Shown: positions 21,219-42,553 of the stretch, piece by piece
Numbering within the stretch: the first letter of the stretch is position 1
How the letters are laid out: every line of letters begins with the position of its first letter
NCBI GenBank assembly: GCA_011088105.1
Contig: JAALKI010000022.1
Coordinates: 1 to 42,610, forward strand
Source: Nitrospirota bacterium
Lineage (GTDB): Bacteria > Nitrospirota > Nitrospiria > Nitrospirales > UBA8639
Length of the DNA stretch: 42,610 bases
Direction: 5' to 3'
Translations under genes and position numbers: made by a program
Notes under the pieces: generated by a model
Databases searched by the model: none
What the model was told of the DNA's origin: nothing
What the model saw: the letters and a program-made list of their open reading frames with translations, nothing else

Positions 21219-22205
21219 ATGTCAGGATTATTAACACAGATGGATATTATAACAGAAATTCGACGCGTGATTGAGTTAGAACGCCTCACCATCCAACGGT
21301 TGGAGGCACAGGTAGGGGCAAGCTATGAGACAGCAGTTGGGATGCTGTTTGCGTGCCAGGGAAAGGTTGTTGTGACTGGAGTAGGAAAATCTGGAATCAT
21401 CGCCCAGAAAATTGCCGCGACACTGGTATCGACGGGGACGGCGGCTTTGTTTCTGCATGGCGCAGAAGGAATGCACGGGGACATGGGTATTGTCCAAAAA
21501 GGCGACATCCTGATTGCCATTGGCAAATCGGGGGAAAGTGATGAACTGGTGGCCATTCTCCCTGTGGTTCGACGGTTGGGTGCCCAGATTATTGCCATTA
21601 CCGCTCATGCAGATTCAACCGTTGCTCGTCATTCAGACTTGGTGTTGGTGACGCCTATTGAGGAAGAGGCATGCCCGCTCAATATGGCTCCGACTTGCAG
21701 TACAACAGCGGCTTTGGTTGTTGGCGATGCTTTGGCCATGGCGTTGATGAAGCTGCGGAATTTTCAACCGGCGGACTTTGCTTTATTTCACCCTGGAGGT
21801 CAATTGGGGAAACGGTTACTCTTGACGGTAGCCGATATCATGCGGGCTGGAGAGGCCAATGCGCTGATTCATGTCTCAAGTGACCCACGGGCGCTTTTAT
21901 ATGAAATGACCAGCAAGCGAGCAGGTGCCGTCTCCGTTGTAGATGATGCGCATGCCTTATTGGGCCTAGTGACGGATTATGATATACGGCAGGTATTAGA
22001 GCGAGGCGAGGACTTGTTTGCACTATCGATGACTCAAATCATGAACCCTCATCCGCAATTTGTGTATGCTGATGATAAGGCTTTTCACGCATTGGAAATA
22101 ATGGAAAATCGAGAAAAACCGATTTCGGTCTTGCCTGTTCTCAATCGTCAGAAACAAGTTGTTGGGCTCATTCATTTGCATGATCTCGTCGCGCGAGGGT
22201 TATGA
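21219..22205 (+). CDS. kdsD: D-arabinose 5-phosphate isomerase, KpsF/GutQ/KdsD family
   Basis: This enzyme interconverts ribulose 5-phosphate and arabinose 5-phosphate, the entry to Kdo synthesis for lipopolysaccharide or capsule. The N-terminal SIS domain shows VTGVGKSGIIAQKIAATLVSTG, HGAEGMHGDMG, AIGKSGESDEL, TPIEEEACPLNMAPTCSTTAAL and FHPGGQLGKRLL; two CBS domains follow (about 205-328). The first ATG is 21219 and an in-frame ATG at 21240 (MDIITEIRR) is equally possible; neither has a good ribosome-binding site. No kdsA, kdsB or kdsC is in the window. It opens the polysaccharide locus, 46 bp ahead of a GDP-mannose dehydratase. Confidence 0.92.
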   Translation: MSGLLTQMDIITEIRRVIELERLTIQRLEAQVGASYETAVGMLFACQGKVVVTGVGKSGIIAQKIAATLVSTGTAALFLHGAEGMHGDMGIVQKGDILIAIGKSGESDELVAILPVVRRLGAQIIAITAHADSTVARHSDLVLVTPIEEEACPLNMAPTCSTTAALVVGDALAMALMKLRNFQPADFALFHPGGQLGKRLLLTVADIMRAGEANALIHVSSDPRALLYEMTSKRAGAVSVVDDAHALLGLVTDYDIRQVLERGEDLFALSMTQIMNPHPQFVYADDKAFHALEIMENREKPISVLPVLNRQKQVVGLIHLHDLVARGL

Positions 22206-22251: not shown

Positions 22252-23217
22252 GTGAAAGCGCTTATCACAGGTATAACAGGTCAGGATGGGTCCTACTTGG
22301 CCGAGTTTCTGTTGGAGAAAGGGTACGAAGTTCATGGGCTTGTCCGAAGGGTTTCAATTGAAGACCCTGAGCATCGGCTTTGGCGTCTTCTTCATATCAA
22401 GGATCGGCTTCACCTGCATGCTGCCTCCTTGGAAAGCCTTCCCAGCATTTATCGCGTCATGCACGAAGTCCAGCCTGAGGAATGTTATCACTTGGCAGCG
22501 CAAAGCTTTGTGGCGTATTCCTTTGAGGATGAGTTTTCGACACTCAACACGAATATTAATGGGACCCATAATGTGTTAGCTGCTATTAGAGATTGTGTGC
22601 CGCAATGCCGGTTCTACTTCGCGGCGTCCAGTGAAATGTTTGGAAAGGTAGAAGAAGCTTCGCAAAGTGAACAGACACAGTTTCATCCTCGTTCCGCTTA
22701 CGGGATCTCAAAGGTTGCTGGATTTCATTTGACTAAAAACTATCGAGAAGCCTATGGCATTCAGGCCTCGTGTGGGATCCTCTATAACCATGAATCCCCA
22801 CGGCGAGGGTTTGAGTTTGTCACCAGGAAAATTACCTCTCATGCAGCACGCATTAAGAGAGGATTGGCCAAGAGCATCAAGTTGGGAAATCTCGATGCAC
22901 GGCGTGATTGGGGGCATGCGCGTGATTATGTCCAAGCCATGTGGCTTATGCTGCAGGAGGACGTGCCGGATGATTATGTTATTGCAACAGGGGAACAGCA
23001 TTCTGTTCGGGAATTCGCAGAAGCCGCTTTTTCATATGTAGGTCTTGATTATCGTAACCATGTGGTAATTGATCAAGAGCTCTTTCGGCCAGCGGAAGTC
23101 CAGACGTTATTGGGAGATGCGGGTAAGGCCAGACAGAAGCTGAAGTGGAACTGCCAGATACAATTCAAGGAGCTTGTACGGGAAATGGTTGAATCGGATT
23201 TGCGGATGGGTGCCTGA
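22252..23217 (+). CDS. GDP-mannose 4,6-dehydratase-like NAD-dependent epimerase/dehydratase
   Basis: A short-chain dehydrogenase of the extended type that most resembles GDP-mannose 4,6-dehydratase, which makes GDP-4-keto-6-deoxymannose. The Rossmann motif [34 protein letters not shown], the Ser-rich FAASSEMFGKV and the catalytic Tyr-Lys in SAYGISKVAG are present, as are NHESPRRGFEFVTRKI and DARRDWGHARDYV. At 321 residues it is shorter than the gmd at 23473. It starts with GTG at 22252. The two dehydratases are clearly diverged from each other and differ in base composition, so this copy may be older or serve a different product such as GDP-rhamnose. Confidence 0.85.
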   Translation: MKALITGITGQDGSYLAEFLLEKGYEVHGLVRRVSIEDPEHRLWRLLHIKDRLHLHAASLESLPSIYRVMHEVQPEECYHLAAQSFVAYSFEDEFSTLNTNINGTHNVLAAIRDCVPQCRFYFAASSEMFGKVEEASQSEQTQFHPRSAYGISKVAGFHLTKNYREAYGIQASCGILYNHESPRRGFEFVTRKITSHAARIKRGLAKSIKLGNLDARRDWGHARDYVQAMWLMLQEDVPDDYVIATGEQHSVREFAEAAFSYVGLDYRNHVVIDQELFRPAEVQTLLGDAGKARQKLKWNCQIQFKELVREMVESDLRMGA

Positions 23218-23472
23218 TTTGTCTTACAAGCAAGTGTATGAAAATTGTACTCGTGACCCATGTCATAAACATGGCATGTTTGAAATGGCCAAATCCTTTG
23301 AAGGTAATTTCAGGTAATCTACCTTACTCAAGAGTTCAAGTTCTTGGCACCGTGATATCCCAAGCTATTAAGTCGTAGTGGAGAGGACAGCAATGAGTCT
23401 TGGTTGAAAAGTAAAAAAAACTGTCAAAGGTATATATCAAATCACGTAGGAATCCTGGAAAAACAAAACGAC

Positions 23473-24561
23473 ATGAACAGAATGAAGAGAGCATTAGTTA
23501 CAGGTATCACCGGTCAGGATGGCGCATATCTTGCAGAATTTCTTCTTGAAAAAGGCTATGAAGTGCACGGCATCAAACGTCGTTCGTCCCTATTCAATAC
23601 CGATCGTATCGACCACCTTTATCAAGACCCGCACGAGAAAGACTGTCATTTTAAACTTCATCACGGTGACCTAACTGACGGCTCGAACCTCATCCGTATT
23701 ATCCAGCAAACAAAACCCGATGAGATCTACAACCTTGCGGCTCAATCTCATGTGGCTGTCAGTTTCGAAGAACCAGAATATACTGCAAATTCCGATGCGC
23801 TTGGTACTCTGCGTATCCTGGAGGCGATTCGCATCTTGGGCCTAGAAAAGAAAGCTCGCTTTTATCAAGCCTCTACCTCTGAACTCTTTGGCAAGGTAAA
23901 GGAGACTCCGCAAAGGGAGACCACTTTTTTCTACCCGCGTAGCCCTTATGCTGTGGCCAAGCTCTATGCCTATTGGATCACGGTTAATTATCGTGAAGCC
24001 TATGGCATCTATGCTTGTAACGGTATCTTGTTCAATCATGAATCTCCAATTCGAGGTGAAACATTTGTGACTCGCAAGATTACCCGTGCGTTAGCTCGTA
24101 TCAAACTTGGCCTTCAAGACTGCCTCTATCTCGGCAATCTTGATGCAAAAAGAGACTGGGGCCATGCCAAAGACTATGTCGAGATACAATGGCTGATGCT
24201 GCAGCAAGAACGACCGGAAGATTTTGTTATCGCTACTGGTATACAGCACAGCGTACGTGATTTCGTCAACGCTGCTGCCAAGGAACTTGAAATACAGATC
24301 AGCTGGCAGGGACAAGGCATTAACGAGTCTGGCTCACTTAATGGAAAGACCATTGTCCGTATCGATCCACGCTACTTCCGTCCGACCGAGGTTGAGACCT
24401 TACTGGGCGACCCCACAAACGCAAAACAAAAACTCGGCTGGAATCCGAAAATCAGCTTTGAAGAGCTAGTTGCTGAGATGGTTCGGGAAGATCTTAAGAC
24501 TGCCAAATGTGATGAACTAATCAAGCGCCATGGTTACAAATCCATGGATTACCACGAATGA
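23473..24561 (+). CDS. gmd: GDP-mannose 4,6-dehydratase
   Basis: Gmd converts GDP-mannose to GDP-4-keto-6-deoxymannose, the precursor of GDP-fucose and related sugars. The protein is of the long E. coli-like type (about 362 residues): [19 protein letters not shown], the [15 protein letters not shown] loop, [30 protein letters not shown], catalytic [12 protein letters not shown], and [17 protein letters not shown]. The open frame begins with TTG at 23404, but ATG 23473 or 23482 fits the family start. fcl follows with a 4-bp ATGA overlap, so the pair is translationally coupled and the product is probably channelled to GDP-fucose. Confidence 0.95.
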
Positions 24562-25541: not shown

Positions 25542-26330
25542 ATGAGTACACGCAATACAACATTGGTGTCTTTGCAGTTACTTGGTCAGTCCGGGTGTCG
25601 AATTGAATATAACGGTACTGTGATCTATATAGATCCTTACCTTTCTAACTCTGTCCAGGAACTAGATTCACCTGATTTAAAAAGGCTCATTTCACCCCCA
25701 ATGTCCCCAGAAGAGGTAACGGACGCTAGCTGGGTGCTGATTACGCATGACCATATAGACCATTGTGATCCTCATACTTTGCCTAAAATTGCTCATGCAT
25801 CCGAATCTTGTCGTTTTATTGGTCCGCCACCGGTGTTAAAGAGATTTCTGGAATGGGGTATTTCTGCCCAGCGTTACCAAATGGCTCAAGAAAGCTGGAT
25901 GCAAATTGGTCAGGCAGTGAAGATTAGAGCTGTCCCGGCAGCACATCCTATTATCAAGCGAGATGAAGATCACAATTTATTAACCATCGGATATATCGCA
26001 GAGATTGAAGAAAAACGAATTTATCTCGCGGGTGATACGAGTGTTACACAAGAGTTAATCGATGTATTAACGTCATTACGTCCTATAACCACAGCAATTC
26101 TTCCGGTGAATGAACGCAATTTCTTTCGAGATCGCCGTGGGATTATTGGAAACATGTCTGTAAGAGAGTCCTTCCTATTGGCAATGGAAATCGGAGTAAA
26201 AACCGTAATCCCAGTTCATTGGGATATGTTTGAAGCGAATTCGGTAATCCTAGATGAGATTCGTGTGATCTATCATCAAATGGGGCCAGGCTTTGATTTG
26301 CAAATTCAGCCAGACTCAATAGCCCTCTAA
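25542..26330 (+). CDS. UlaG-like metallo-beta-lactamase-fold hydrolase (putative lactonase)
   Basis: A 262-residue metallo-hydrolase of the UlaG type, relatives of which open L-ascorbate-6-phosphate lactone. Metal ligands lie in THDHIDHCD; the partner motifs FIGPP, AAHP, LAGDTS and VIPVHWDMF are in family order. The N-terminus (LLGQSGCRIEYNGTVIYIDPYLS) is typical. UlaG enzymes act in the cytoplasm on sugar lactones; no ascorbate pathway is nearby. It sits 3 bp after fcl and 3 bp before the next glycosyltransferase, so it belongs to the polysaccharide operon. In this setting it may hydrolyse a sugar lactone to the acid, feeding the hydroxyacid dehydrogenase and CMP-synthetase downstream (inference). 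Confidence 0.78.
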   Translation: MSTRNTTLVSLQLLGQSGCRIEYNGTVIYIDPYLSNSVQELDSPDLKRLISPPMSPEEVTDASWVLITHDHIDHCDPHTLPKIAHASESCRFIGPPPVLKRFLEWGISAQRYQMAQESWMQIGQAVKIRAVPAAHPIIKRDEDHNLLTIGYIAEIEEKRIYLAGDTSVTQELIDVLTSLRPITTAILPVNERNFFRDRRGIIGNMSVRESFLLAMEIGVKTVIPVHWDMFEANSVILDEIRVIYHQMGPGFDLQIQPDSIAL

Positions 26331-26333
26331 TTC

Positions 26334-27269
26334 ATGCTTATTAGTATCATTATCCGTACATTGAATGAGGAGAAACATTTGGACGTTCTCCTTTCAAGTA
26401 TCGAAGGTCAGGAAGTTGCTGATCTGACATATGAGATTATTGTTGTCGATTCTGGTTCTGATGACCATACGTTGCAAATAGCAACATCTCATGGATGTCA
26501 GATTCTCCATATCACGCGTGAAGAATTCTCGTTTGGGCGTTCCCTAAATATGGGGTGCGAAGCTGCATCGGGTGAGTTATTAGTCATGGTCAGCGGTCAT
26601 TGTGTGCCAACGAATAAACAGTGGCTGAAAGCTTTATGCCAACCATTGATTCAAAACGAAGCAAGTTATGTCTATGGCCGACAAATCGGCAGCTCAGACA
26701 GTTATTATAGCGAACGCAGAATTTTCTCGAAGTACTATCCAGAAAAAACCCAAATCCCTCAGGAAGGCTTTTTCTGCAATAATGCTAATTCTGCAATTAC
26801 TCGTACAATGTGGGAACGCTATCGTTTTGACGAAGAGCTAACAGGTCTTGAGGACATGGAGTTGGCAAAACGGTTGGCTAATGATAGTGGAAAATTGGGC
26901 TATATTGCGGAAGCCTGTGTCTGCCATTTTCATGACGAGTCATGGCATACTGTCAAGCGTCGTTTTGAACGAGAAGCTATAGCCTTACAAAAAATTATGC
27001 CTCAAATCCATATTCATAAACTGGACTTCCTTCGATATATCGTTTCCAGTGTTTGGCTGGATTGGAAGAATGCAAAGCAGGAAAGTGCATTCCTCAAAAA
27101 GGCAAAAGAAATTGTTCAGTATAGATTTTATCAGTATTGGGGCAGTTATGTAGGTAACCATGATCATCGAAAACTCTCGCATGCCCAGAAGGATGAATAT
27201 TTTTATCCACACACGTTAGAGAATAATTATGAAGAAGAAAATCGTCGCGTTGTTACCGATGAAAGCTAA
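26334..27269 (+). CDS. Family 2 glycosyltransferase
   Basis: A GT-A fold transferase that would move a sugar from a nucleotide donor to the growing glycan on the cytoplasmic face of the inner membrane. The 311-residue protein starts with ISIIIRTLNEEKHLDVLLSSI, has the nucleotide-binding VVDSGSDDHT, MVSGHCVPTNKQWL in the place of the DxD region (no clear DxD is seen), and TGLEDMELAKRL as the catalytic ED motif. The C-terminal 70 residues are aromatic and basic, with WLDWKNAKQ, perhaps membrane-associated. It overlaps the next gene by 41 bp, and is thus tightly coupled to the cytidylyltransferase. The donor is unknown. Confidence 0.87.
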   Translation: MLISIIIRTLNEEKHLDVLLSSIEGQEVADLTYEIIVVDSGSDDHTLQIATSHGCQILHITREEFSFGRSLNMGCEAASGELLVMVSGHCVPTNKQWLKALCQPLIQNEASYVYGRQIGSSDSYYSERRIFSKYYPEKTQIPQEGFFCNNANSAITRTMWERYRFDEELTGLEDMELAKRLANDSGKLGYIAEACVCHFHDESWHTVKRRFEREAIALQKIMPQIHIHKLDFLRYIVSSVWLDWKNAKQESAFLKKAKEIVQYRFYQYWGSYVGNHDHRKLSHAQKDEYFYPHTLENNYEEENRRVVTDES

Positions 27270-27927
27270 CAGCGAGCGAGTAAAAGGAAAAAACTTCAAG
27301 GATTTTCTTGGCAAGCCATTATTTCGCTGGATACTCGATTCTTTACTAGAGGTTGAAGAGATCGAACAAGTCATTATCAATACCGATGCGCGGGACATTC
27401 TTCAAGAGAAGGGCTTTGCCGAGAGTGACAGGATCTTGATCCGTGACCGCAAGCCAGAAATCTGTGGTGATATGGTCTCTATGAATCTCGTACTGGCTGA
27501 CGATGTTAAGAGCATAGAGGCCGATATCTACCTCATGACTCATACCACCAATCCTCTAATAAGTACAGATACCATCCGTCGCGCACTAAGCACTTTCCAA
27601 CAAGAGCAATCTGAAGGTGCAGCAGATTCGCTCTTTACAGTTGATAAGATTCAAAATCGTTTTTACCGAGCCGATGGCAGTGCGGTTAACCATAATCCCA
27701 ATAATCTTGTCCGCACCCAGGATCTTGAGCCTTGGTTCCAAGAAAACTCCAACCTGTACATTTTTACACGTGGCAGCTTTGCCGAGACAAATGCTCGTAT
27801 AGGCATGAAGCCGATGATGTTTGAGAGTCCAAAGTTTGAATCCATTGATATAGATACGCCAGAAGACTGGGATTTCGCGTTTGTAGCGGCACGTTATCTA
27901 ATGGAGCAGAAGAGACAACAACAATGA
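27229..27927 (+). CDS. CMP-sugar-acid synthetase, acylneuraminate cytidylyltransferase family
   Basis: Members of this family (NeuA, PseF, LegF, KdsB) join CMP to 2-keto sugar acids such as sialic, pseudaminic or legionaminic acid or Kdo. The 232-residue protein has the N-terminal nucleotide loop LLPMKANSERVKGKNFKDFLGKP with the conserved Arg and Lys, the TTNPLIS stretch after YLMTHT, and the C-terminal FESIDIDTPEDWDFA signature. It starts inside the glycosyltransferase gene and its stop overlaps the start of the dehydrogenase gene (ATGA), so three genes are translationally coupled. No NeuB/KdsA-type condensing enzyme is found in the window, which leaves the source of its keto acid open. Confidence 0.85.
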   Translation: MKKKIVALLPMKANSERVKGKNFKDFLGKPLFRWILDSLLEVEEIEQVIINTDARDILQEKGFAESDRILIRDRKPEICGDMVSMNLVLADDVKSIEADIYLMTHTTNPLISTDTIRRALSTFQQEQSEGAADSLFTVDKIQNRFYRADGSAVNHNPNNLVRTQDLEPWFQENSNLYIFTRGSFAETNARIGMKPMMFESPKFESIDIDTPEDWDFAFVAARYLMEQKRQQQ

Positions 27928-28859
27928 AAATACTGGTTACCTGTCCTCCCATGCTTGGCATGATCGATAACTTCAGCCAAATTTTTGAACAGCATGGGGT
28001 AGAAGTAACTGTACCAAATGTCGTGCAAACGCTGTCGATTAAAGAACTCAAAGAGCTTGTTCCACAACATGATGGATGGATCATCGGGGATGATCCGGCC
28101 ACCCGAGAAGTCTTGACCGCTGGAAAGGCAGGTCAACTGAAGGCGGCGGTTAAATGGGGAGTTGGTGTGGATAACGTAGACTTTGAGGCATGTAAAGAGC
28201 TCGATATATCTATTGCAAATACTCCTAATATGTTTGGTCGAGAAGTGGCTGATATTGCGATGGGATATGTCATTGCCCTTGCAAGAGAAACCTTTCAGAT
28301 CGATGCAGGCGTGCGTCAAGGACAGTGGCCAAAGCTGCGAGGGATTTCTTTATCTGATAAAACAGTGGCCCTTGTGGGTTTTGGCGACATTGGGAAAAAT
28401 GCAGCTAAACGCCTGCTCGCAGCCGATATGAAGGTCATTGTTTATGATCCTGTAGTACCCGACAATCCAGAACTAACCACTGTCGAGCGTGCCGACTGGC
28501 CTGACCGGATTGAAGAGGCCGATTTTCTTCTCATAACCTGCTCCTTGACAGCTTCTAGCCATCATATGGTCAATGCGGAAGTATTAGCCAGGACAAAGGA
28601 TGGTGTGCGGGTAATCAATGTTGGCCGCGGTCCTGTAATTAACGAGAAGGCGCTTGAAACAGCGATTCAAGCTGGCAAAGTGTATTCAGCAGCACTGGAT
28701 GTCTATGAAACAGAACCGCTGCCCAAGGACTCTTATCTTCGCACCCACCCACGCTGTATTTTCGGATCACACAACGCATCCAATACTATAGACGCTGTAG
28801 ATCGAACCAGCCGTATTGCTATCGACAAACTCTTCAAGTTTTTGGGGATCATCGAATGA
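27924..28859 (+). CDS. D-isomer-specific 2-hydroxyacid dehydrogenase (SerA-like)
   Basis: An NAD(P)-dependent dehydrogenase that interconverts a 2-hydroxyacid and the 2-keto acid. The N-terminal part carries KWGVGVDNVDFEAC; the nucleotide-binding motif is VALVGFGDIGKNAAKRL, followed by VYDP; VINVGRGPVINEKAL holds the conserved Arg, ALDVYETEPLPKDS the Glu, and GSHNASNT the catalytic His. The protein has 311 residues, lacking the ACT/regulatory domain of full SerA. It overlaps the cytidylyltransferase by 4 bp. This pairing suggests that it produces, or acts on, the acid that is activated with CMP, rather than serving serine synthesis (inference). Confidence 0.87.
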   Translation: MKILVTCPPMLGMIDNFSQIFEQHGVEVTVPNVVQTLSIKELKELVPQHDGWIIGDDPATREVLTAGKAGQLKAAVKWGVGVDNVDFEACKELDISIANTPNMFGREVADIAMGYVIALARETFQIDAGVRQGQWPKLRGISLSDKTVALVGFGDIGKNAAKRLLAADMKVIVYDPVVPDNPELTTVERADWPDRIEEADFLLITCSLTASSHHMVNAEVLARTKDGVRVINVGRGPVINEKALETAIQAGKVYSAALDVYETEPLPKDSYLRTHPRCIFGSHNASNTIDAVDRTSRIAIDKLFKFLGIIE

Positions 28860-28898
28860 TACCCTTGGTAAGGGTATTGTGAGCATGAGGTATTGATT

Positions 28899-29750
28899 GT
28901 GCCAAACGAAGAGAGTCGGCTTCGAATCATTCGACCCGATAGCCGAATAACGGAAGGCTCAATCAGGGCAATCCGGGACTTGATTGATGAAGTTTGGACC
29001 TTCCGTAGCCATATCAAGATTGTCTTTAAGGAGCAATTCCGTGCTGCTTATTCAGGGACTGGGCTAGGCATATTCTGGAACTATGTGCTGCCCTTGGTTC
29101 CGTTGACTGTCTATTGGATGTTGTCGAAGTTGCGTGTCTTTCCGAATTTCGAGGGCGTTGATAGCGCAACTTTTCTGACATTTGGCGTGACGTTGTGGTT
29201 TCTGTTTACGGGCTGTGTTCAGACACCGATCCAGGTTGTCCACTCACGCAATAAGGAGGCGATGAAAACCGCCTTTCCCTTGAGTGCTGCGATTGTTTCG
29301 GGATTTGGGCGGTTATTGTTCGATACGCTGATACGGGTTATGTTTGTGACCATTGTTGTAATCATGACACAAAGTTGGCCGGGCTTACAGAGTTTGCTAC
29401 TACCTGTCGTGATGCTACCAGCCGTTCTGTTATTTATTGGAGGGGGGTTGTTACTTGGCATACTTAATGTGATCTACAACGATGTCTCTCGTGTGGTGAC
29501 CATCCTGCTCCAATATGGTATTTTTGTGAGCGGGGTACTATTCCCCCTTTCTGATATGGATCTGCTCTCCACCCTAATTCTGTTTAACCCTTTTGCGGTA
29601 TTTATCGATGCTTGCCGTACTATTGTCTTTCAAGGGGTCATTGAAAATTTCAGTGTGTATCTTGTCATGACAGGGCTAGCCTTGATCGTGTTCGTGTTGT
29701 CATGCCGTGTATTCTTTATCATGGAATATCGGATCAGGGGAATTAATTGA
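28899..29750 (+). CDS. wzm: Polysaccharide ABC exporter, membrane permease (Wzm/TagG-like)
   Basis: The ABC-2 type permease forms the channel that moves a lipid-linked polysaccharide across the inner membrane. It has an N-terminal amphipathic part ([20 protein letters not shown], here the typical gate-helix region) and six membrane segments ([96 protein letters not shown]). I prefer GTG 28899 because GAGG lies 8 bases before it; TTG 28893 is the alternative. The ATPase gene overlaps its stop. Export by this route means the glycan is finished in the cytoplasm, in contrast to Wzx/Wzy systems. Confidence 0.9.
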
Positions 29751-31006
29751 TGTTGCTGCAGACCGATACTGTACTGGAAGTAGAACGATTGTCCAAGCTT
29801 TACTCACGTGCACAAGGTGTGACTCGTCAGCGATTGGCCGTGACCTTCGGTCGTATACTGTTAGGATGGTCTCCAAAGCCTCTTAGCAATTTGCAGAAAA
29901 GTGAGTTTTGGTCGCTTAAGGATGTTAGCTTTTCTCTCAAGCGTGGTGAGGCCCTTGGTGTGATCGGACTTAATGGCGCAGGGAAAACAACATTGCTCAG
30001 ACTTCTGGCAGGGCAGCTTTTGCCTGATGAGGGTGAAATCCACATTCTTGGTAAAACAGCGGCAATGATTGATCTGACTGCTGGCTTTCAGATGACAGCA
30101 AGTGGAGCGAGGAATGTCTTTCTGCGGGGAGCAATGTTGGGACGCAGCAAAGAAGAGATTGCTGTGACCTACGATGAAATCGTTGATTTTGCAGAACTCG
30201 GAGATGCGATCGATGCTCTGGTCTCTACCTACAGTTCTGGGATGCTCATGCGGCTTGCCTTCTCTATCATGGTAGCAATGAAGTCAGACATATTATTTAT
30301 TGACGAAATCTTATCTGTTGGTGATTTCTGTTTTCGTCAGAAATGTCTTGCGCGTATTCGTGAACTGCGTGAGCAAGCTGCTTTTGTGTTAGTCTCTCAC
30401 TCAATGAGTAATATAAAGCTTTTTTGCGATCGTGCTATAGTTTTACACAAAGGGCGAGTGGTCTTCAAAGGGGAACCAGAGGAGGCAATTAGAGTCTATG
30501 AGGAGATGAAATTTCCCCAAGCGGTTACTCAAGAAACAAAGCGCGCAAACGTCCTAAATCCCCAATTTCACAATGAAAAGATCGTTGAGCAAGTTGAACA
30601 TTATTGGTGTAATGTGTATGGACAGCCTATCGGTGAGATCCGTTCGGGAGAAAACTTGTATCTAAAAGCATCCTTTAAAATAGCCCACAGACCAAGGGAT
30701 CTCATTATGGGAGTACCGGTTTGGACAGAAGAAGGCGGGTATGTGACTGGATTTTCGACAGAGATTCAAGAAGAAGGAATGGCTATTACCCCAGAGGAGA
30801 GGACCACGTTTCTGCTCAAAATCCCCAATATTATCTTTAATCCAGGTATTTACCTGTCAAACTTCGTCATTAATGATGGCCCTGAATTTCTTTACCGAGG
30901 AAGTAATACGACCTTGACGGTTCTATCGGTGCGGAATCGTTTTTGGGGGGTGGTCACGCTCCCACATAGTTGGCAAATATCAACTGAAAGCGAGAAACTG
31001 TCTTAA
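29747..31006 (+). CDS. wzt: Polysaccharide ABC exporter ATPase with C-terminal cargo domain (Wzt-like)
   Basis: The N-terminal 240 residues form the nucleotide-binding domain: Walker [10 protein letters not shown], a [12 protein letters not shown] signature motif (SSGM instead of LSGGQ, as usual in this subfamily), Walker [13 protein letters not shown] and the H-loop LVSHS. From about residue 275 an additional strand-rich domain of some 140 residues ([51 protein letters not shown]) matches the Wzt C-terminal module that binds a modified non-reducing end of the glycan. The start is TTG 29747 or ATG 29750, overlapping wzm. The extra domain implies that the polymer carries a terminal mark, for which methyltransferases later in the locus are candidates. 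Confidence 0.92.
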
Positions 31007-31278: not shown

Positions 31279-32606
31279 TTGCTATACGAGAGATGTTCAC
31301 AAGTGAGATCAATAGATTTCGGGCTATTTCGCAAACGGTTATCAAAGGTAATGTTGGTAATTATAATCAATATCCTAATTTTTCAGGTTTTACTTGAAGT
31401 TGGGCTGAAATTCATTATGGTTCCCGCATGGCCAACTTACTTTTTACCTCGTCATTATCCAGCTTCTATGGTTCAAACAACAGCGGGACCTGTATCAGCT
31501 AATTGGATCACAAACTCTCAGGGTTTTCATGATGTTGAACATGATTTTAGTGCAGTTGATGATAAAGTCAGAATTGTGACCATCGGTGATTCTTTCCTTG
31601 ATGGCCCTCAGCAAAACCCACTTTCATCGTTACTGTATTCTCTAATCAAGGAAGAGCGAGACAATGTTGATGTCATCAACCTAAGCAGGCCAGGAATCAA
31701 TACCAATCTATATTACTTACTATTTAAACACGCTTTGCCGACGTATGAGCCTGATATCGTATTGGTATTTATTTATGAGGGAAATGACTTTAGGGCGATG
31801 GATAAGTTTTCGGCAGACCTTTATGATAAACCAGTCTCATTCTTTAAACGTTACCCACAATCATCTTATTACGGGATGATCTTCCCGAGGTCATCTATAT
31901 TTATTTCAGACATGGTTAGTGGCCGTTTAATCCATAATAGATGGAGTAATATGCCTGAAAATGCGCGATGGGAAAACCTATTGAGGCACGTAACCTGGAG
32001 GAAATTTCAAGAGATATCACTAAATACATAGATGCAGATAGTGCTACTGTTCGTCAGTTTCTTATTGATCGTTTAACAAAAGAGGAACTACAGGAGCTAA
32101 CAAAATTTGGTGTACGGATTGATTTGTTGTCATACATGATCTCTATTGGGCTTGAGGCAAACTACGCTCCAAGTTTAGGGATAAAGAAACATAGGCCTGA
32201 AATTAAGAATGAAATTATTGCGAATAAACAGGTGGAATCTGTTTTTGCTTTTCTAAGGGCAATGAAAGAGACTTCTTTGAAAAGAGGAATTGAATTCTAT
32301 TGTGTATTAATACCAACGTCATATGCTGACCCAAAGTCTTCTGATATGTATGTGAGACTCGGTGCTGGTCAAGATCCTTTGTTTGTTGGCACACGCATGA
32401 AACAAATGGACCAGCTTAAGCATAAGTTGATATATGGGAATTTCAAAATTATTGATCTTAGCGATGCACTTGATGGTGAAAGTGACAGCTACCTTAGGTT
32501 TGATACTCATTGGAGTCTAAAAGGCGTTCAAATTAGTGCAGGCTATATCAGTAAGTATCTAATTAATAAAAGCAAGCAACTAACAACGCCATCAATTACG
32601 TCATGA
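31279..32606 (+). pseudogene. SGNH-hydrolase / AlgJ-AlgX-like protein, split by a frameshift
   Basis: Two overlapping frames encode the halves of one protein of about 440 residues. The first (31279 to a stop near 32031) has an N-terminal membrane anchor (VMLVIIINILIFQVLLEVG) and the nucleophile motif TIGDSFLDG. The second (31968-32606) carries DTHWSLKG, the Asp-His of the catalytic triad in AlgJ/AlgX-like O-acetyltransferases. Reading on after the run GGGAAAA (31970-31976) with one extra base joins ENARW to GKPIEARNLEEIS without a stop. The protein would be periplasmic and might acetylate or deacetylate the glycan. No MBOAT partner is present. Start may be TTG 31279 or GTG 31303. It could be a real pseudogene or a sequencing error. 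Confidence 0.7.
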
Positions 32607-34061: not shown

Positions 34062-35855
34062 ATGGTGAATTCTGGATTAAGTGCATGTAGACAGGGAACT
34101 GGTAATTTGACCATTTCGGTCGTATCTCCAAATTTTAACCAGGCAGAATTTCTTGCGGAGTGTTTGTCGTCTGTTCGTGATCAAACGTATAAGCCAATTG
34201 AACACCTTGTGTTCGATCCCGGCTCGACAGATGGCAGTCGCGATGTTGCTGCACGTTTTCCTAACGTGACACTCATTGCCGAGCCAGATGAGGGTCAGTC
34301 TGAAGCTGTCAATAAAGGTTTTTCCCGTGCGCGAGGTGAAATCATTGCCTGGCTGAACTCTGATGATTGTTTGGCACATCCGCGTGTTTTCGAGTGTGTT
34401 GTGCAGCGCTTTCTCCAAGATGATGAGCCGGGTATTGTGTATGGAAGAGGCATTTTTACAAATGAATCTGGCAAGAAGCTACGGGATGTGTACATCAACA
34501 AAAACCCTGCATCACTGAATTGGCGGCTTCAGCAAGAAGACGGCATTCTTCAGCCTGCACTTTTCATGAGACGAAGTGTGATTGACCGTGTTGGTCCGTT
34601 ACGCAACGATCTACATTACTGCATGGATTATGAGTATTGGATTAGATGTGTGAAAGCAGAGGTGAAATTCGTGTATTTGGACGTGGATCTGGCAATAGCA
34701 CGTTACCACGATAACAATAAAACATATGGAATGCGAGGGAAAAGTTATTACGAAATTTGCGACATGCTGAAAGAGCATTTTGGTTATGTGAGCCATGTTT
34801 GGTTAAAGCGATATGCTGAGTTTTTATCTGATGGGCACGATGGCGTGCTTGTCGATGCTGAAAATGCTGGCATCAAAGATCCCGATAAGTTTAACAAGAT
34901 TTACCGTGGTCTTTTGCTTGCCTACAACGGATCATATGATAGTCGTCGGCTGTTGTCAGAACGAGCACCAAAGAAAAGTTTTGGTGATACCTTGCGAGAG
35001 ATGAAAAGGTTGGAAGTCGAAGGGCCAGTTCCCTGTCACGAGATACCGACTGGACAAGAACAAAAGTCCAGTTGCGTTACCTATACGGTGGGAGCTCGGC
35101 GCTGGGCTTTTGATGCTAAATGGAAGACAGCACAAATTGTTAAATCACATAAGTTCTTTCGGAATCGTGTAGCGAAACGTCACCGTGATACGTGCATCAT
35201 TGTCGGCAATGGTCCGACTTTAAACCAGACAGACTTTTCACTGCTGAAAAATCAGGATGTCATCGTTTCGAACAATGTTTTCTTAAGCGATGAGCTCATC
35301 AAGTACGCGACGTACTATACAGTAGTTAATTATCTCGTTGCAGAGCAGAGCAGTCAACATATTAATAGGCTGGAGGAGGTGCACAAGGTTCTGCCGTATT
35401 GGTTGGCGTATTGTTTGAATCCTGGCCCGAACGTCTATTTTGTTGATGCTGTTGGCTATGCGGAATTCAGCACGAATATGTTTGAAAATATGTCCTGGCG
35501 GCATACCGTGACATTTTTCAACCTACATCTTGCCTACGGACTTGGATATCGCAAGGTAGTAATGATTGGCTTTGATCATAACTATAAACAACCCAAAGGC
35601 GTGTTTGAGCAGGAAGTTATCCAAAACTATGCGGAAGACGACAACCATTTCCATTCGGGCTATTTTCGTGGAAAGAAATGGCAGGCTGCAGATACGAGTA
35701 ATATGGAAAAGATGTATCTATTGGCAAGAACTGCCTATGAGAAGGACGAGCGGGATATTGTGAACTGCACGATAGGTGGTCACCTAGAGGTATTTAGACG
35801 TGGTGATTTAAATGTGGAGCTAGGACTGGAAAACAGCAGAATGAGCTATGCTTAA
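34062..35855 (+). CDS. Bifunctional protein: family 2 glycosyltransferase fused to a DUF115/MptE-like domain
   Basis: Residues about 17-240 are a GT2 domain: ISVVSPNFNQAEFLAECL, FDPGSTDGSRD and the metal-binding WLNSDD near 97-102, with MDYEYWIR as the later acidic motif. After a linker, residues about 375-597 form a second domain: CIIVGNGPTLNQTDFSLL, the VTFFNLHLAYGLGY helix, VVMIGFDHNYK, NHFHSGYF and IGGHLEVFRRG. The same motif set recurs in the proteins at 36081 and 41741. Similar NGPSL domains occur in Maf flagellin glycosyltransferases and GT42 sialyltransferases, so a CMP-sugar transferase role is plausible but inferred. The protein would be cytoplasmic. The start ATG 34062 is preceded by only a weak ribosome-binding site (GAGGTATGG). 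Confidence 0.82.
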   Translation: MVNSGLSACRQGTGNLTISVVSPNFNQAEFLAECLSSVRDQTYKPIEHLVFDPGSTDGSRDVAARFPNVTLIAEPDEGQSEAVNKGFSRARGEIIAWLNSDDCLAHPRVFECVVQRFLQDDEPGIVYGRGIFTNESGKKLRDVYINKNPASLNWRLQQEDGILQPALFMRRSVIDRVGPLRNDLHYCMDYEYWIRCVKAEVKFVYLDVDLAIARYHDNNKTYGMRGKSYYEICDMLKEHFGYVSHVWLKRYAEFLSDGHDGVLVDAENAGIKDPDKFNKIYRGLLLAYNGSYDSRRLLSERAPKKSFGDTLREMKRLEVEGPVPCHEIPTGQEQKSSCVTYTVGARRWAFDAKWKTAQIVKSHKFFRNRVAKRHRDTCIIVGNGPTLNQTDFSLLKNQDVIVSNNVFLSDELIKYATYYTVVNYLVAEQSSQHINRLEEVHKVLPYWLAYCLNPGPNVYFVDAVGYAEFSTNMFENMSWRHTVTFFNLHLAYGLGYRKVVMIGFDHNYKQPKGVFEQEVIQNYAEDDNHFHSGYFRGKKWQAADTSNMEKMYLLARTAYEKDERDIVNCTIGGHLEVFRRGDLNVELGLENSRMSYA

Positions 35856-36080: not shown

Positions 36081-39000
36081 ATGACAATAGCTCGCAAAAA
36101 GGAAGAATTAACAAAATTTGGTAAAGCCAGGACTGCCTCTTTTGTGAAAAGCAATTTCAGCAACCAAGTAGGCAGCGAAAAAACACACCTCAAACTGCTT
36201 ATCATTGATGCTACGAAGATTGGAGATGGCACAGCAACAGGTGAGATGAAAAAGAATTTGCTAGGGGAGTGGCCTAAAGAGAAACTTCTTCAAATTTATA
36301 GTGTGGCATACGAAAAAATCGGCATGTATAGGGGCACAAGCACTGAAGGTTATCCAGTAGAAGCTAATAAAATACACGATGATGTCAAACAATATAACCC
36401 GGATGTCATCTTATATCGACCAGTGCCAGATAACATGGCTTTGCATAATCTAGCCATGAAACTGATCTTACAGGCCAATAAACCTTTTGTGACTTGGATT
36501 ATGGATGATTGGCCTGCTCGACTTAATAGAGAAGATTACAATAAATATTTAAAAATGGAGCAAGATTATCGAGTGCTTTTAGCCCGTTCGCAATTAAATC
36601 TGAGTATTAGCCAGGCAATGTCTCATGCTCTTAAGGAACGCTATGGCGTAACTTTTATGCCTTTAGCAAATGGCGTGAACTTAAAGCAGTGGCCAAGGAA
36701 AGAAATATGCACGCAAAAGTCAAAAACGTTCTTGGTTCGATATGCAGGGAGTTTAGCAGAAAATATGACATTGCAAAGTCTTGCAAGAGTTGCACGAGCT
36801 ATTGAGGAAATGAGTGAGAATTATGAAATTAAATTTGAGATTCGAACAAAGAAAATATGGTGGGATAAAGCAAAGCAATATTTTCGTGGATTAAAAAGAA
36901 CATTTTTTTTGGTTGATCAGCTTTCATCAGAAGATTATCGTGCGTGGATATCAGAAGCGGATATGTTGGTTATCGCTTATAACTATGACCCCATTTCTAT
37001 TGAATACATTCAGTATTCATTTGCGAATAAGTTGCCTGAATGTTTGGCTAGTGGCGCAGTTATTCTTGCTCATGGTCCAACTAGAGTCGCAACAATTGAT
37101 TACCTGAAATCTAATGGCTGTGCAGCAATTGTCGAAGACGATTCAGAAGCTTCTCTAATTCAGGAAATGGAAAAGGTCATAACTGATAACTCATATAGAG
37201 TTGGTTTAGTAGAAAAGGCCAGAATGATTGCTTCCAAAAATCACGATCTAATGAAATTGCAAGAAAAAATGGAGACACTCTTTGTTCAAATAAGCCAAAG
37301 CAGAGCACTTGATTCACATGTTGGCTTTTTAACTATGGATCGTGAAGTACATGCGCATCTTGATGAAACAAAGATTATTGCACGTTTACTATCAGCGCTA
37401 CCAGTTTCCTCCATTATGATTGACGTGGGGGCACATCATGGGACAGCACTTGCACCGTTTAGTGAAATGGGTTGGAAGGTTTTTGCCTTTGAGCCAGATC
37501 CAGGAAACAGGAAACGTCTTGTGGAGAGATACGGAAATGTACAAAACATTAGCATTGATCCTCGTGCGGTAGGAGAGCGTACTGAAACAGGTGTCCCGTT
37601 CTATGTTTCCGATGAAAGTACAGGTATTTCCAGTATGTTGGCTTTTAGGGAGAACCATAAGCCGGGAGACGCTGTCGATGTAACAACAATTGCAGGTATT
37701 CTCGCCGACAATGACATCGAACACGTAAATTTTCTGAAGATTGATGTAGAAGGCTATGACTTTTCGGTTTTAAAATCTGTTCCTTGGGGAGAAATTAAAC
37801 CAGATGTTATTGAGTGTGAGTTTGAAGATGAAAAAACCAAGCATTTAGGGCATAGTTGGAAAGACATCTGCGAATATTTGGTAGAGAAAGGATATGCCGT
37901 CTATGTCAGCGAATGGCACCCAATCATTCGGTACGGTATACGCCATGACTGGCATCAACTTATTCGTTACCCATGTGAACTGGCCGACTCCAACGCCTGG
38001 GGTAATTTGCTGGCATTTAAGAATGATCCTGGATGTGCAGCGATGCAAGAAGCATTGGATAAAGTACTCACGGTAAAGCATTCAGCATGTCAATCATTGG
38101 GTACTAGTGAACGGATTATGAAACAGCCATTCTTACCCTGTTTTTCCTCGTATGCTCATTTTGTCGAATGGGTTCGGAGTAAAAGTCTGACACTATTCCG
38201 TATCGGTCAGTTTGCCATGTGGGTATTGTACTTTCTTAAGCGACATCCTACAGCTTCTGCTCTTGGGCTAATGACATTGAGTATGCTTGTTCTTATGCCG
38301 ATTTTGATTCCAGCATTTGCGTTCTACGAAAGCTATTTTTGGGCAGTCGCTGTTCTATGTATGTTCGCTGCAATATCTGGGATGGGCATCTCATTTGTTA
38401 ATAAGAAGATAATGGAATTTGTCGAGCGAGAACACCATCACAGACAAGCACTAAAATTCGAGATCATATGCGAACACGAGAAAAAACATGACCAGTTGGT
38501 GTCAAGGGTGAAGGCCCAGAGGCAGCAACTCGAGCAGCTGGTGTTGGGCAAGGGAGGACAAAAACGGCAACCCGAGCAGCAACCCGAACAGCTGGCACAA
38601 TATATGGAACTTGTTAACAGTATTCCAACCCGTTCCCCAATATTCCTTCCAACAGAAAAAGTGCCATTGCCTGAGCGCATTCGAAGTTTGAAGCGCGTTA
38701 GTCAAATTTATAATGATCAGCTGGACGCTCTGTATCGTCCACAGATACGTGCATTGAGAGAGAAATACAAAGGTACAGACCGCTGTTTTATTATTGGTAA
38801 TGGACCGAGCCTTAACAGCACTGATTTATCAGTGCTGAAAAATGAAGTGACATTTGCGGTTAACGGATTTTTCATGAAGGTGCCTGAACTTGATTGGCTG
38901 CCAACATTTTATGTTGTAGAGGATCATTTGGTTGCTGAGGATAGACAGGAACGGATTAATAATTTTTCGGGACCAACAAAACTCTTTCCAGTTTACCTGG

Positions 39001-39527
39001 GTTACTGCTTAGACGGCGGATGCGACACCATTTTTTTTAATCACCGTCCTAGAGTCAGTTATCCGCATGGTTTTGATTTTTCAACTGACGCTTCAGAAAT
39101 AACATATGCAGGTTGTACTGTAACTTATACATGTATGCAGCTAGCGTATTATTTTGGGTTTAAAGCAATTTATTTAATCGGTGTAGATGCAAGTTATGAT
39201 ATTCCGAATGATGTAAACAGAAGTAATGCCTATGATGTCAGCGTATTGGATATGCAATCTGATGATCCAAATCATTTTCATCCAGATTATTTCGGGAAAG
39301 GGTTTCGATGGCATAACCCACAAGTCGATAAGATGCTTGAAGCCTACCTTGAAGCTAAACGGGTATTAGAAAAAACAGAGCAGAATATTTTTAATGCTAC
39401 GATTGGAGGGAAACTAGAAGTGTTTAAGCGTGTTAAATTTAGTAGTATCTTCCCAAAAGCCCTTTCTCCAAAAGAAGTAGAACGCCTCAATATTGACAAT
39501 AATGGTGGCAGCAAAAATAGCGTTTAA
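36081..39527 (+). CDS. 1148-residue fusion: glycosyltransferase, FkbM methyltransferase, membrane/coiled-coil segment, DUF115 domain
   Basis: Four modules are visible. Residues about 37-400 look like a GT-B glycosyltransferase (ILYRPVPDN, MPLANGVNL, RYAGSLAENMT, NKLPECLASGAVILAHG). Residues about 432-648 are an FkbM-type methyltransferase (MIDVGAHHGTALAPFSEMG, FAFEPDPGNRKRL, FLKIDVEGYDFSVL). Residues about 704-772 hold two to three hydrophobic helices, followed by a Gln/Glu-rich coiled coil (about 784-841, QRQQLEQLV). Residues about 900-1148 are a DUF115/MptE-like domain (CFIIGNGPSLNSTD, VTYTCMQLAYYFGF, IYLIGVDASYD, NHFHPDYFG, IGGKLEVFKR). The protein is thus membrane-attached and could extend, methylate and finish the glycan. 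Part of it (from 38016) is duplicated directly downstream. Confidence 0.82.
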   Translation: MTIARKKEELTKFGKARTASFVKSNFSNQVGSEKTHLKLLIIDATKIGDGTATGEMKKNLLGEWPKEKLLQIYSVAYEKIGMYRGTSTEGYPVEANKIHDDVKQYNPDVILYRPVPDNMALHNLAMKLILQANKPFVTWIMDDWPARLNREDYNKYLKMEQDYRVLLARSQLNLSISQAMSHALKERYGVTFMPLANGVNLKQWPRKEICTQKSKTFLVRYAGSLAENMTLQSLARVARAIEEMSENYEIKFEIRTKKIWWDKAKQYFRGLKRTFFLVDQLSSEDYRAWISEADMLVIAYNYDPISIEYIQYSFANKLPECLASGAVILAHGPTRVATIDYLKSNGCAAIVEDDSEASLIQEMEKVITDNSYRVGLVEKARMIASKNHDLMKLQEKMETLFVQISQSRALDSHVGFLTMDREVHAHLDETKIIARLLSALPVSSIMIDVGAHHGTALAPFSEMGWKVFAFEPDPGNRKRLVERYGNVQNISIDPRAVGERTETGVPFYVSDESTGISSMLAFRENHKPGDAVDVTTIAGILADNDIEHVNFLKIDVEGYDFSVLKSVPWGEIKPDVIECEFEDEKTKHLGHSWKDICEYLVEKGYAVYVSEWHPIIRYGIRHDWHQLIRYPCELADSNAWGNLLAFKNDPGCAAMQEALDKVLTVKHSACQSLGTSERIMKQPFLPCFSSYAHFVEWVRSKSLTLFRIGQFAMWVLYFLKRHPTASALGLMTLSMLVLMPILIPAFAFYESYFWAVAVLCMFAAISGMGISFVNKKIMEFVEREHHHRQALKFEIICEHEKKHDQLVSRVKAQRQQLEQLVLGKGGQKRQPEQQPEQLAQYMELVNSIPTRSPIFLPTEKVPLPERIRSLKRVSQIYNDQLDALYRPQIRALREKYKGTDRCFIIGNGPSLNSTDLSVLKNEVTFAVNGFFMKVPELDWLPTFYVVEDHLVAEDRQERINNFSGPTKLFPVYLGYCLDGGCDTIFFNHRPRVSYPHGFDFSTDASEITYAGCTVTYTCMQLAYYFGFKAIYLIGVDASYDIPNDVNRSNAYDVSVLDMQSDDPNHFHPDYFGKGFRWHNPQVDKMLEAYLEAKRVLEKTEQNIFNATIGGKLEVFKRVKFSSIFPKALSPKEVERLNIDNNGGSKNSV
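38016..38450 (+). repeat. Source copy of a partial direct duplication
   Basis: DNA from 38016 (TTTAAGA) closely matches 39523 onward for about 140 bp, up to ATTTTG at 38158-38163; the match resumes after the second ATTTTG at 38301-38306. The segment between the two ATTTTG repeats (38164-38306, 143 bp) is missing from the downstream copy, together with one further T. Similarity then fades through the coiled-coil region. Confidence 0.85.
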
Positions 39528-40995: not shown

Positions 40996-41754
40996 ATGTC
41001 AATGGACCAAAAAACTGCGGTTCTGATTACCGGGTGTAACGGTGGAATTGGAAAAATACTGTGCCAGGAATTCAATGCTGCTGGTTATCTAATAATCGGG
41101 ACAGATTTGCATGCGACGGAGGAAGTCAATTGCCACCTCTACCTTGGTTGTAATCTGCTTGAGCTTACTTCTAATAGTGAAACCCAAAAGTGGTTCAAAA
41201 GCGCTGTAGAAGATTTCGTCAATGAACAGGAGACTGGGTTGCAGGCAGTTATCAATAATGCTGCCTATCAAGTTGTTAAACCGCTTTATGATTTATCTGT
41301 TTCTGAGTTTCATTCTACTCAGCAGATTAATGTCATTGCGCCTTTTGTGTTGGCTCATCTTTTCGAATCTTCACTTCGTAAACATACAGGTAGTATCGTC
41401 AATGTCGGTAGTATTCATTCTAGGTTAACGAAGCCTGGATTTTGTGCTTACTCTACCTCCAAAGCCGCACTCTCTGGACTCACCAGGGCATTGGCACTGG
41501 AATTTTCTAGAGATGTGACCATTAACACCATTTTACCAGCCGCGACTAAAACAGATATGTTGCTTGCAGGATTTAGCGAACATCCAGAAAAACTTTTGGA
41601 GTTGGAGTCTTATCACCCGATTGGCCGAATTGCCGAGCCAGTTGAAATTGCTCGTTTAGCCCTGTTCCTCTGTTCGGAAAATGCACGCTTCATAACTGGT
41701 GCTGAGATACCTGTTGATGGTGGGATCGGAGTGCGTTTGCATGACCCAGTTTAA
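40996..41754 (+). CDS. Short-chain dehydrogenase/reductase
   Basis: A classical SDR of 252 residues. LITGCNGGIGKIL is the NAD(P)-binding TGxxxGIG motif, NNAAYQ corresponds to NNAG, NVGSIHS holds the catalytic Ser and YSTSKAALSGLTRAL the Tyr-x3-Lys. INTILPAATKTDML and FITGAEIPVDGG are typical C-terminal landmarks. SDRs of this kind occur in nonulosonic acid and other unusual-sugar clusters next to CMP-sugar synthetases, but the substrate here is unknown. It follows 188 bp without a gene and overlaps the last gene of the window by 14 bp. Confidence 0.9.
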   Translation: MSMDQKTAVLITGCNGGIGKILCQEFNAAGYLIIGTDLHATEEVNCHLYLGCNLLELTSNSETQKWFKSAVEDFVNEQETGLQAVINNAAYQVVKPLYDLSVSEFHSTQQINVIAPFVLAHLFESSLRKHTGSIVNVGSIHSRLTKPGFCAYSTSKAALSGLTRALALEFSRDVTINTILPAATKTDMLLAGFSEHPEKLLELESYHPIGRIAEPVEIARLALFLCSENARFITGAEIPVDGGIGVRLHDPV

Positions 41755-42553
41755 AGGAATAGTCCGGCCTGGAGGAAAGCTCGATCAATTCAACCCCTAC
41801 CGAATAGGCTTACACCTTTTATTAGATAGGCTAAGATGGGACTGTTCTCCTCGTTCTTGGATACATCGAAAGAAAGTTGCTGCACTGCGTAACGTTCATG
41901 CTGGGGAAAAAGCTATCATTCTCTGTAATGGCCCAAGTCTCCGGGATGTCGATTTCTCTACTATAAGAGGTGTCTTTACCTTCGGGTTGAACAAAATCAA
42001 TCTTCTTTTTAAGCAGACTGATTTTCGCCCCTCCGCGATAGTATCGGTTAACCCTTTTGTTATTGAACAAAATGCAAACTTCTTCTCATCAACGGATATC
42101 TTACTATTTCTGGATCGCGTGGCAATTAATCATGGTATTTCTTCTACAGAGCATATTTATTTTTTACATTCCTGTGGGTTTCCATATTTTGCACGGGACT
42201 GTTCTGTAAGCGTATTTCAAGGGTTTACAGTCACTTATGTTGCCCTTCAAATCGCGTATCATATGGGTTTTAGCAACGTTGCGCTTGTGGGTTGTGATCA
42301 TGATTACAAAATGACTGGCAATCCAAACGTCATCGGTTATAACGAGTCCAGGGACCCTGCTCATTTCTGCGAGGATTATTTCTCTCCTAACCAGCCTTGG
42401 CAGTTCCCAGATTTGAAAGCGAGTGAGTATTACTATGACCTGGCTCGACGCTGTTACGAGGATGATGGGAGAGTGATTGTCAATGCCAGTATGAAGACGC
42501 AACTTAGCGTTTTTCCTCTAATGCGTTTGGAAGATTTCATTCGCGATGCCTAG
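41741..42553 (+). CDS. Stand-alone DUF115/MptE-like putative glycosyltransferase
   Basis: A 270-residue protein from ATG 41741 (MTQFKGIVRPGG), inside the end of the SDR gene; earlier in-frame starts from 41699 would lie deep in that gene. It consists almost wholly of the module shared with the two large proteins: AIILCNGPSLRDVDFSTI (about 58-75), VFQGFTVTYVALQIAYHMGF, VALVGCDHDYK, AHFCEDYF and NASMKTQLSVFPL. It would be cytoplasmic. Homology to the NGPSL domains of Maf and GT42 proteins suggests transfer of a CMP-activated sugar; a pterin kinase role (as in archaeal MptE) is unlikely in this context. The right terminal repeat begins 5 bp after its stop. Confidence 0.78.
   Translation: MTQFKGIVRPGGKLDQFNPYRIGLHLLLDRLRWDCSPRSWIHRKKVAALRNVHAGEKAIILCNGPSLRDVDFSTIRGVFTFGLNKINLLFKQTDFRPSAIVSVNPFVIEQNANFFSSTDILLFLDRVAINHGISSTEHIYFLHSCGFPYFARDCSVSVFQGFTVTYVALQIAYHMGFSNVALVGCDHDYKMTGNPNVIGYNESRDPAHFCEDYFSPNQPWQFPDLKASEYYYDLARRCYEDDGRVIVNASMKTQLSVFPLMRLEDFIRDA

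Follow-up and report, generated by a model that had tools for sequence, protein, structure and literature searches.

A recurrent CMP-synthetase and dehydrogenase gene set suggests an oxidative, condensation-free route to CMP-activated ulosonic acids

In a 42,610-nucleotide stretch of Nitrospirota DNA (contig JAALKI010000022.1, assembly GCA_011088105.1; hereafter the window), a module at positions 25542–28859 encodes a UlaG-like hydrolase, a GT2 glycosyltransferase, a NeuA/PseF-type cytidine monophosphate (CMP)-synthetase and a D-2-hydroxyacid dehydrogenase. An original prediction had recognised this module from the letters of the sequence, and the domain matches and four intact open reading frames (ORFs) confirm it. 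Together with a short-chain dehydrogenase/reductase (SDR) encoded further along the window, these genes are, in our somewhat better than even estimate, best explained by an oxidative, condensation-free route to a CMP-activated 2-ketoaldonic (ulosonic) acid. The keto acid of CMP-activated 3-deoxy-D-manno-octulosonic acid (Kdo), sialic, legionaminic and pseudaminic acids comes from a synthase that condenses phosphoenolpyruvate (PEP). To a stricter version we give even chances: an aldose would be converted by oxidation alone to a CMP-2-ketoaldonate that keeps its 3-hydroxyl. Such a compound, formed with no PEP- or pyruvate-condensing enzyme, would be a new class of CMP-sugar donor, and the transferase using it would be a GT2 in which S-G/A-H stands in place of DxD.

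In the proposed pathway, C1 oxidation of an aldose by the SDR would yield the lactone. The lactonase, which is UlaG-like in this host and an SMP-30 or PF04199 protein in other genomes, would open this lactone to an aldonate, and the NAD-type D-2-hydroxyacid dehydrogenase would oxidise the aldonate at C2 to a 2-ketoaldonate, which would, unlike Kdo and sialic acids, retain its 3-hydroxyl. The NeuA-type synthetase would then transfer CMP onto the anomeric hydroxyl to give a CMP-ulosonate, with pyrophosphate hydrolysis driving the unfavourable oxidation forward. The GT2, which has lost its DxD motif, and/or PF01973 (Maf-like) transferases would place the residue on a surface glycan, to be exported in this host by a Wzm/Wzt pair. 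We infer every one of these reactions, their order and the identity of the sugar.

The gene set recurs widely around related synthetases. We examined 80 loci from about ten phyla, on contigs chosen by similarity to the window's synthetase (63–75% identity), in which neighbours were detected by tblastn; the counts describe this clade rather than all bacteria. A GT2 lies near the synthetase in 77 of the 80 loci, the dehydrogenase in 76, an SDR in 62 and a PF01973 relative in 60, while a UlaG-like protein is found in 39 and an SMP-30 protein in 16, one or the other in 55 and never both. KdsA and KdsB were detected near the synthetase in none of these loci, and the one NeuB match lay at the outermost end of its locus. 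When partners were counted within 6.5 kb across 93 loci, all four partner functions occurred together in 50. As controls, nine loci around distant CMP-synthetases, most of them NeuB-linked, gave no match to the UlaG-like protein, SMP-30, the dehydrogenase or the SDR. Co-occurrence of the four genes in other genomes had been set beforehand as a test of the original prediction, and it is seen in most of the 80 loci. Such recurrence in the majority of these relatives goes beyond chance; the set is a real, recurrent unit that most likely serves one pathway. That it is an ordinary surface-glycan cluster whose neighbours share no joint pathway we consider extremely improbable: clusters of that kind are mosaics and commonly undergo transfer, but here the gene order is stable across about ten phyla, with fusion and in-place replacements, and already contradicts this account.

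Among 396 genomes of the phylum, close relatives of the synthetase (64–69%) sit in the arrangement hydrolase–GT2–CMP-synthetase–dehydrogenase–SDR in three genomes of the host's taxonomic order, and distant relatives (≤33%) lie mostly beside NeuB. The GT2–synthetase–dehydrogenase triad also occurs on annotated plasmids of Thalassovita, Gemmobacter and Sulfitobacter, and a close relative of the synthetase is present in 12 of the 390 cyanobacteria scanned and, within the sphingomonad order, in 3 of 299 genomes. This patchy distribution suggests horizontal transfer, and the biosynthetic set would itself be mobile; no phage relatives were found.

The synthetase (27229–27927, plus strand, like the other module genes and the window's SDR, transferase and exporter genes; PF02348, 77 bits) keeps the CTP_transf_3 fold and active-site residues, with D207, D209 and the other tested residues invariant across 72 relatives. 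Its best NCBIfam model is PseF, at 80.4 bits far under the cut-off of 205.7, and it is not a KdsB, reaching 37 bits against the best KdsB model, whose cut-off is 193. A structure model (pLDDT 89.9) best matches CMP-ketodeoxynononic acid (CMP-Kdn) and CMP-N-acetylneuraminic acid (CMP-Neu5Ac) synthetases. In a tree of 58 CMP-synthetases, all dehydrogenase-linked members fall in a single clade (95/91) with the NeuB-linked ones outside; three members of this clade show no dehydrogenase, partly from contig ends. The nearest NeuB-linked sisters of the clade are encoded on capsule plasmids of E. coli and Enterobacter (loci L041:8998–11908 and L042:8995–11905), alongside an inositol-monophosphatase-like protein and a 514-aa NeuB-family protein. 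In loci L037, L038 and L039 the annotated synthetase starts (9022) seem too late, as conserved residues lie upstream and the tblastn match begins at 9001.

The observation that the window contains neither NeuB nor KdsA was correct, though a KpsF/KdsD isomerase (21219–22205) lies inside it. We rejected this isomerase as a member of the set, since KdsD relatives occur near none of the 80 related loci. Elsewhere in the host genome, KdsA and KdsB are adjacent on contig C15, a fact out of reach of the original prediction, and the genome encodes only two CTP_transf_3 proteins, this KdsB and the window's synthetase. The host genome has no true NeuB: its single PF03102 match (35.6 bits) was rejected as such, the gene encoding a 3-deoxy-D-arabino-heptulosonate 7-phosphate (DAHP) synthase with a hisC-like gene on one side and a tyrA-like gene on the other. 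The synthetase might activate Kdo or a Kdo derivative supplied by the housekeeping KdsA, with the oxidoreductases and lactonase making or modifying another residue of the same glycan. Consistent with this, 39 of 46 genomes carrying the cassette have KdsA over the cut-off, as has the window's own genome, and a Thalassovita plasmid carries a kdsB–kdsA copy in the same cluster as the set. We nevertheless regard it as unlikely, given that the synthetase is structurally nearest to NeuA-type enzymes rather than KdsB, that in this host it is a second synthetase beside KdsB, and that ten cassette genomes have no match to KdsA, NeuB or KdsB.

NeuB exceeds 100 bits in 21 of the 46 cassette genomes and does not in 25. 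Ten genomes with the set gave no KdsA over the cut-off, no NeuB and no KdsB match: from among the 46, G432 (Sphingomonadales EhC05), G435, G438 (Richelia sinica) and G441, and from a further search of cyanobacteria G751, G771, G785, G810, G856 and G954. Each of the ten has a single CTP_transf_3 match above 33 bits, the synthetase of the set. All five genes are present in G785, and the lactonase slot is filled by PF04199 in G954 and by SMP-30 in G432; the dehydrogenase is present in nine of the ten, with none detected for G856 in the stretch read. Missing matches in metagenome-assembled genomes can reflect incompleteness, less so in near-complete genomes, and G751, G771, G785 and G954 are nearly one contig each. 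Because no KdsA, NeuB or KdsB was found in these ten genomes, a KdsA or NeuB source is not needed there. The search for the same gene set in genomes without NeuB or KdsA, proposed with the original prediction, thus returned ten examples; feeding of the synthetase by a condensing enzyme elsewhere, which the prediction had named as its possible refutation, is not required in these genomes and is favoured by the KdsA of the window's own.

A different source would be general metabolism, in which case the keto acid would be a 2-keto-3-deoxy acid, made by a pyruvate aldolase or a sugar acid dehydratase or by dephosphorylation of DAHP, and a different function would fall to the dehydrogenase. DAHP synthases are common, and an Acuticoccus plasmid (L040:8201–11362) carries in a row an HpcH/HpaI-type aldolase, a CMP-synthetase (42%), a 2-hydroxyacid dehydrogenase and a haloacid dehalogenase (HAD)-family phosphatase. 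The Acuticoccus genes belong to a sister lineage, in which a pyruvate aldolase possibly feeds the sister CMP-synthetase. Around the 80 close relatives, however, there was no aldolase match, and this explanation leaves the near-constant dehydrogenase and the lactonases unaccounted for; we hold it to be improbable.

The oxidative route draws further support from the lactonase slot. The hydrolase (25542–26330; PF12706 Lactamase_B_2, 81.7 bits), a metallo-beta-lactamase-fold protein and putative aldonolactonase, matches the NCBIfam metal-dependent hydrolase and UlaG models below cut-off only. It was rejected as UlaG itself (47 bits against an equivalog cut-off of 306), so that we call it UlaG-like. 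Its structure model (pLDDT 95.3) best matches the UlaG-type proteins 3bv6 and 2wyl/2wym, and the metal-site residues HxHxDH, H135, D165 and H226 are invariant among its relatives. Across the 93 loci, the slot holds a UlaG-like protein in 42, SMP-30 in 17 and PF04199 in 2, two kinds never sharing a locus; L048 is a further PF04199 case. In several gammaproteobacteria, the position that the UlaG-like gene has 5' of the GT2 is occupied exactly by SMP-30. The SMP-30 proteins of the set, whose assignment was confirmed with Pfam in three loci, resemble 7plb and regucalcins. It is mainly this replacement of the UlaG-like protein by unrelated folds that leads us to believe in a hydrolytic step, and the slot enzyme is probably lactone-opening. 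The lactonase role assigned in the original prediction is thereby strengthened, while the SDR that would supply the lactone had been missed. Where the slot is empty, lactone opening may be spontaneous or served from elsewhere. An ORF frequently found upstream of the GT2 in lactonase-less betaproteobacteria was considered as another lactonase and rejected, being EpsI-like as judged by eye.

The dehydrogenase (27924–28859; PF02826, 2-Hacid_dh_C, 169.5 bits, and PF00389) keeps R235, E264, H283 and the GxGxxG..D motif in 70–72 of 72 relatives, and its family includes 2-ketogluconate reductases; we propose that it acts as an aldonate 2-dehydrogenase. Alternatively, it could be a reductase whose product, a 2-hydroxy acid such as glycerate, becomes a substituent of the glycan, while the CMP-synthetase acts on a separate sugar. 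The closest characterised relatives, phosphoglycerate dehydrogenase and glyoxylate/hydroxypyruvate reductases, would agree with such a role, but the dehydrogenase gene is tightly linked to, and overlaps, that of the CMP-synthetase (by 4 bp, ATGA), and its linkage is restricted to one synthetase clade, making this possibility quite improbable in our judgement. The SDR (40996–41754; PF13561/PF00106), a candidate aldose 1-dehydrogenase, is a relative of the SDR found 3' of the dehydrogenase in most other loci, and its catalytic Tyr and Lys are invariant. For the SDR of a related Nitrospirota locus, the best PDB matches are the glucose 1-dehydrogenases 3vtz and 2dtd, and for the alphaproteobacterial type a sulfoquinovose 1-dehydrogenase is among the top three matches. 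Several Rhodobacterales have galE in the usual place of the SDR (L037:10632–11648, L039:10641–11660, L107 and L127).

Several points weigh against the oxidative route. Enzymes of the D-2-hydroxyacid dehydrogenase family usually run in the reductive direction, and by sequence the set's dehydrogenase is best matched by 3-phosphoglycerate dehydrogenases. The window's SDR lies 12 kb downstream of the dehydrogenase, outside the coordinates reported earlier, no SDR occurs within 6.5 kb in 23 of the 93 loci, and SDR specificity is hard to predict with certainty from sequence. None of the three kinds of lactonase is present in 32 of the 93 loci, some of these from contig ends, and the fusion of a UlaG-like domain to the GT2, seen in 13 loci, Pfam-confirmed in one and otherwise counting in favour of the set, has no obvious place in a pathway where the lactonase acts early. 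To these are added the presence of KdsA in the host and the fact that the activities of all members of the set are predictions. The oxidative origin of the keto acid, as originally predicted, is partly supported: gene content, co-occurrence, exchange of one lactonase fold for another, conserved catalytic residues, the synthetase clade and the genomes without KdsA or NeuB speak for it, while its chemistry, namely the direction of the dehydrogenase, the sugar and the CMP transfer, is still an inference.

The donor could be used by the GT2, a PF01973 protein or both. In the GT2 (26334–27269; PF00535), whose gene overlaps that of the CMP-synthetase by 41 bp, every one of the 72 aligned sequences has S-[GA]-H where DxD would stand, with the Pfam GT2 domain still recognised; such a loss would be compatible with a monophosphate donor like CMP, but this is suggestive only. 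PF01973, the central domain of Maf, is Cst-II-like and accepts CMP-Neu5Ac and CMP-Kdo (PMC11339370). The window encodes one clear PF01973 (MptE-like/Maf) protein (41699–42553; 49.7 bits), possibly a CMP-ulosonate transferase, and one further such domain (aa 881–1040) in a large protein (36081–39527) that also has an FkbM methyltransferase domain (aa 448–605). Another GT2 (34062–35855) has a canonical SDD motif and a weak C-terminal PF01973 match below cut-off.

Along the plus strand, the KpsF/KdsD gene is followed by two Gmd-like genes, the first (22252–23217) narrowly missing the Gmd cut-off (397.6 against 415 bits) and the second a full Gmd (23404–24561), then by Fcl, the four-gene module, a Wzm/Wzt-like pair and more transferase genes. 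The ATP-binding cassette exporter pair (28893–31006), comprising a permease (28893–29750) and a Wzt-like ATPase (29747–31006), provides a glycan export context outside the core set; such a pair also lies directly 3' of the dehydrogenase in L085 and L091. At 31279–32606, a frameshift could have split one gene into two overlapping ORFs, of which the second matches AlgX/SGNH weakly.

The set resembles several known systems in part. With sialic, legionaminic and pseudaminic acid activation (NeuB with NeuA/PseF) it shares a homologous synthetase fold and residues and nearby Maf-like PF01973 proteins, but it lacks NeuB, and its keto acid apparently comes from aldonate oxidation. Kdo activation (KdsD–KdsA–KdsC–KdsB) likewise transfers CMP to a 2-keto sugar acid, and a KdsD-like gene lies upstream in the window, whereas the set contains neither KdsA nor KdsB and occurs in genomes without either. 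Non-phosphorylating sugar oxidation also reaches an aldonate through an aldose 1-dehydrogenase and an SMP-30 lactonase, as the SDR and lactonase would here; the set's aldonate would enter C2 oxidation and CMP activation for biosynthesis instead of a dehydratase. The dehydrogenase belongs to the same family as GhrB-type 2-ketoaldonate reductases and has their catalytic Arg-Glu-His, but is proposed to be oxidative, pulled by CMP transfer, with an NAD-type Asp175. UlaG, the L-ascorbate 6-phosphate lactonase, is the best structural match to the hydrolase, with conserved metal ligands, yet identity is ~20% and the set's hydrolase lies in a glycan cluster, fused to the GT2 in some genomes. Within the open literature, we found no description of the gene set or of non-deoxy ulosonic acids in glycans; a reference listed in PMC10433991 records a 4-deoxy-2-hexulosonic acid in the E. 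coli K3 capsule.

If the proposed pathway is correct, a CMP-synthetase gene without NeuB or KdsA would not amount to an incomplete sialic acid pathway, and labels such as 'acylneuraminate cytidylyltransferase' and 'phosphoglycerate dehydrogenase' would be likely misannotations in many genomes. An oxidative alternative to condensation would also extend the nucleotide sugars by a class and could explain ulosonic acids in which the 3-hydroxyl is kept.

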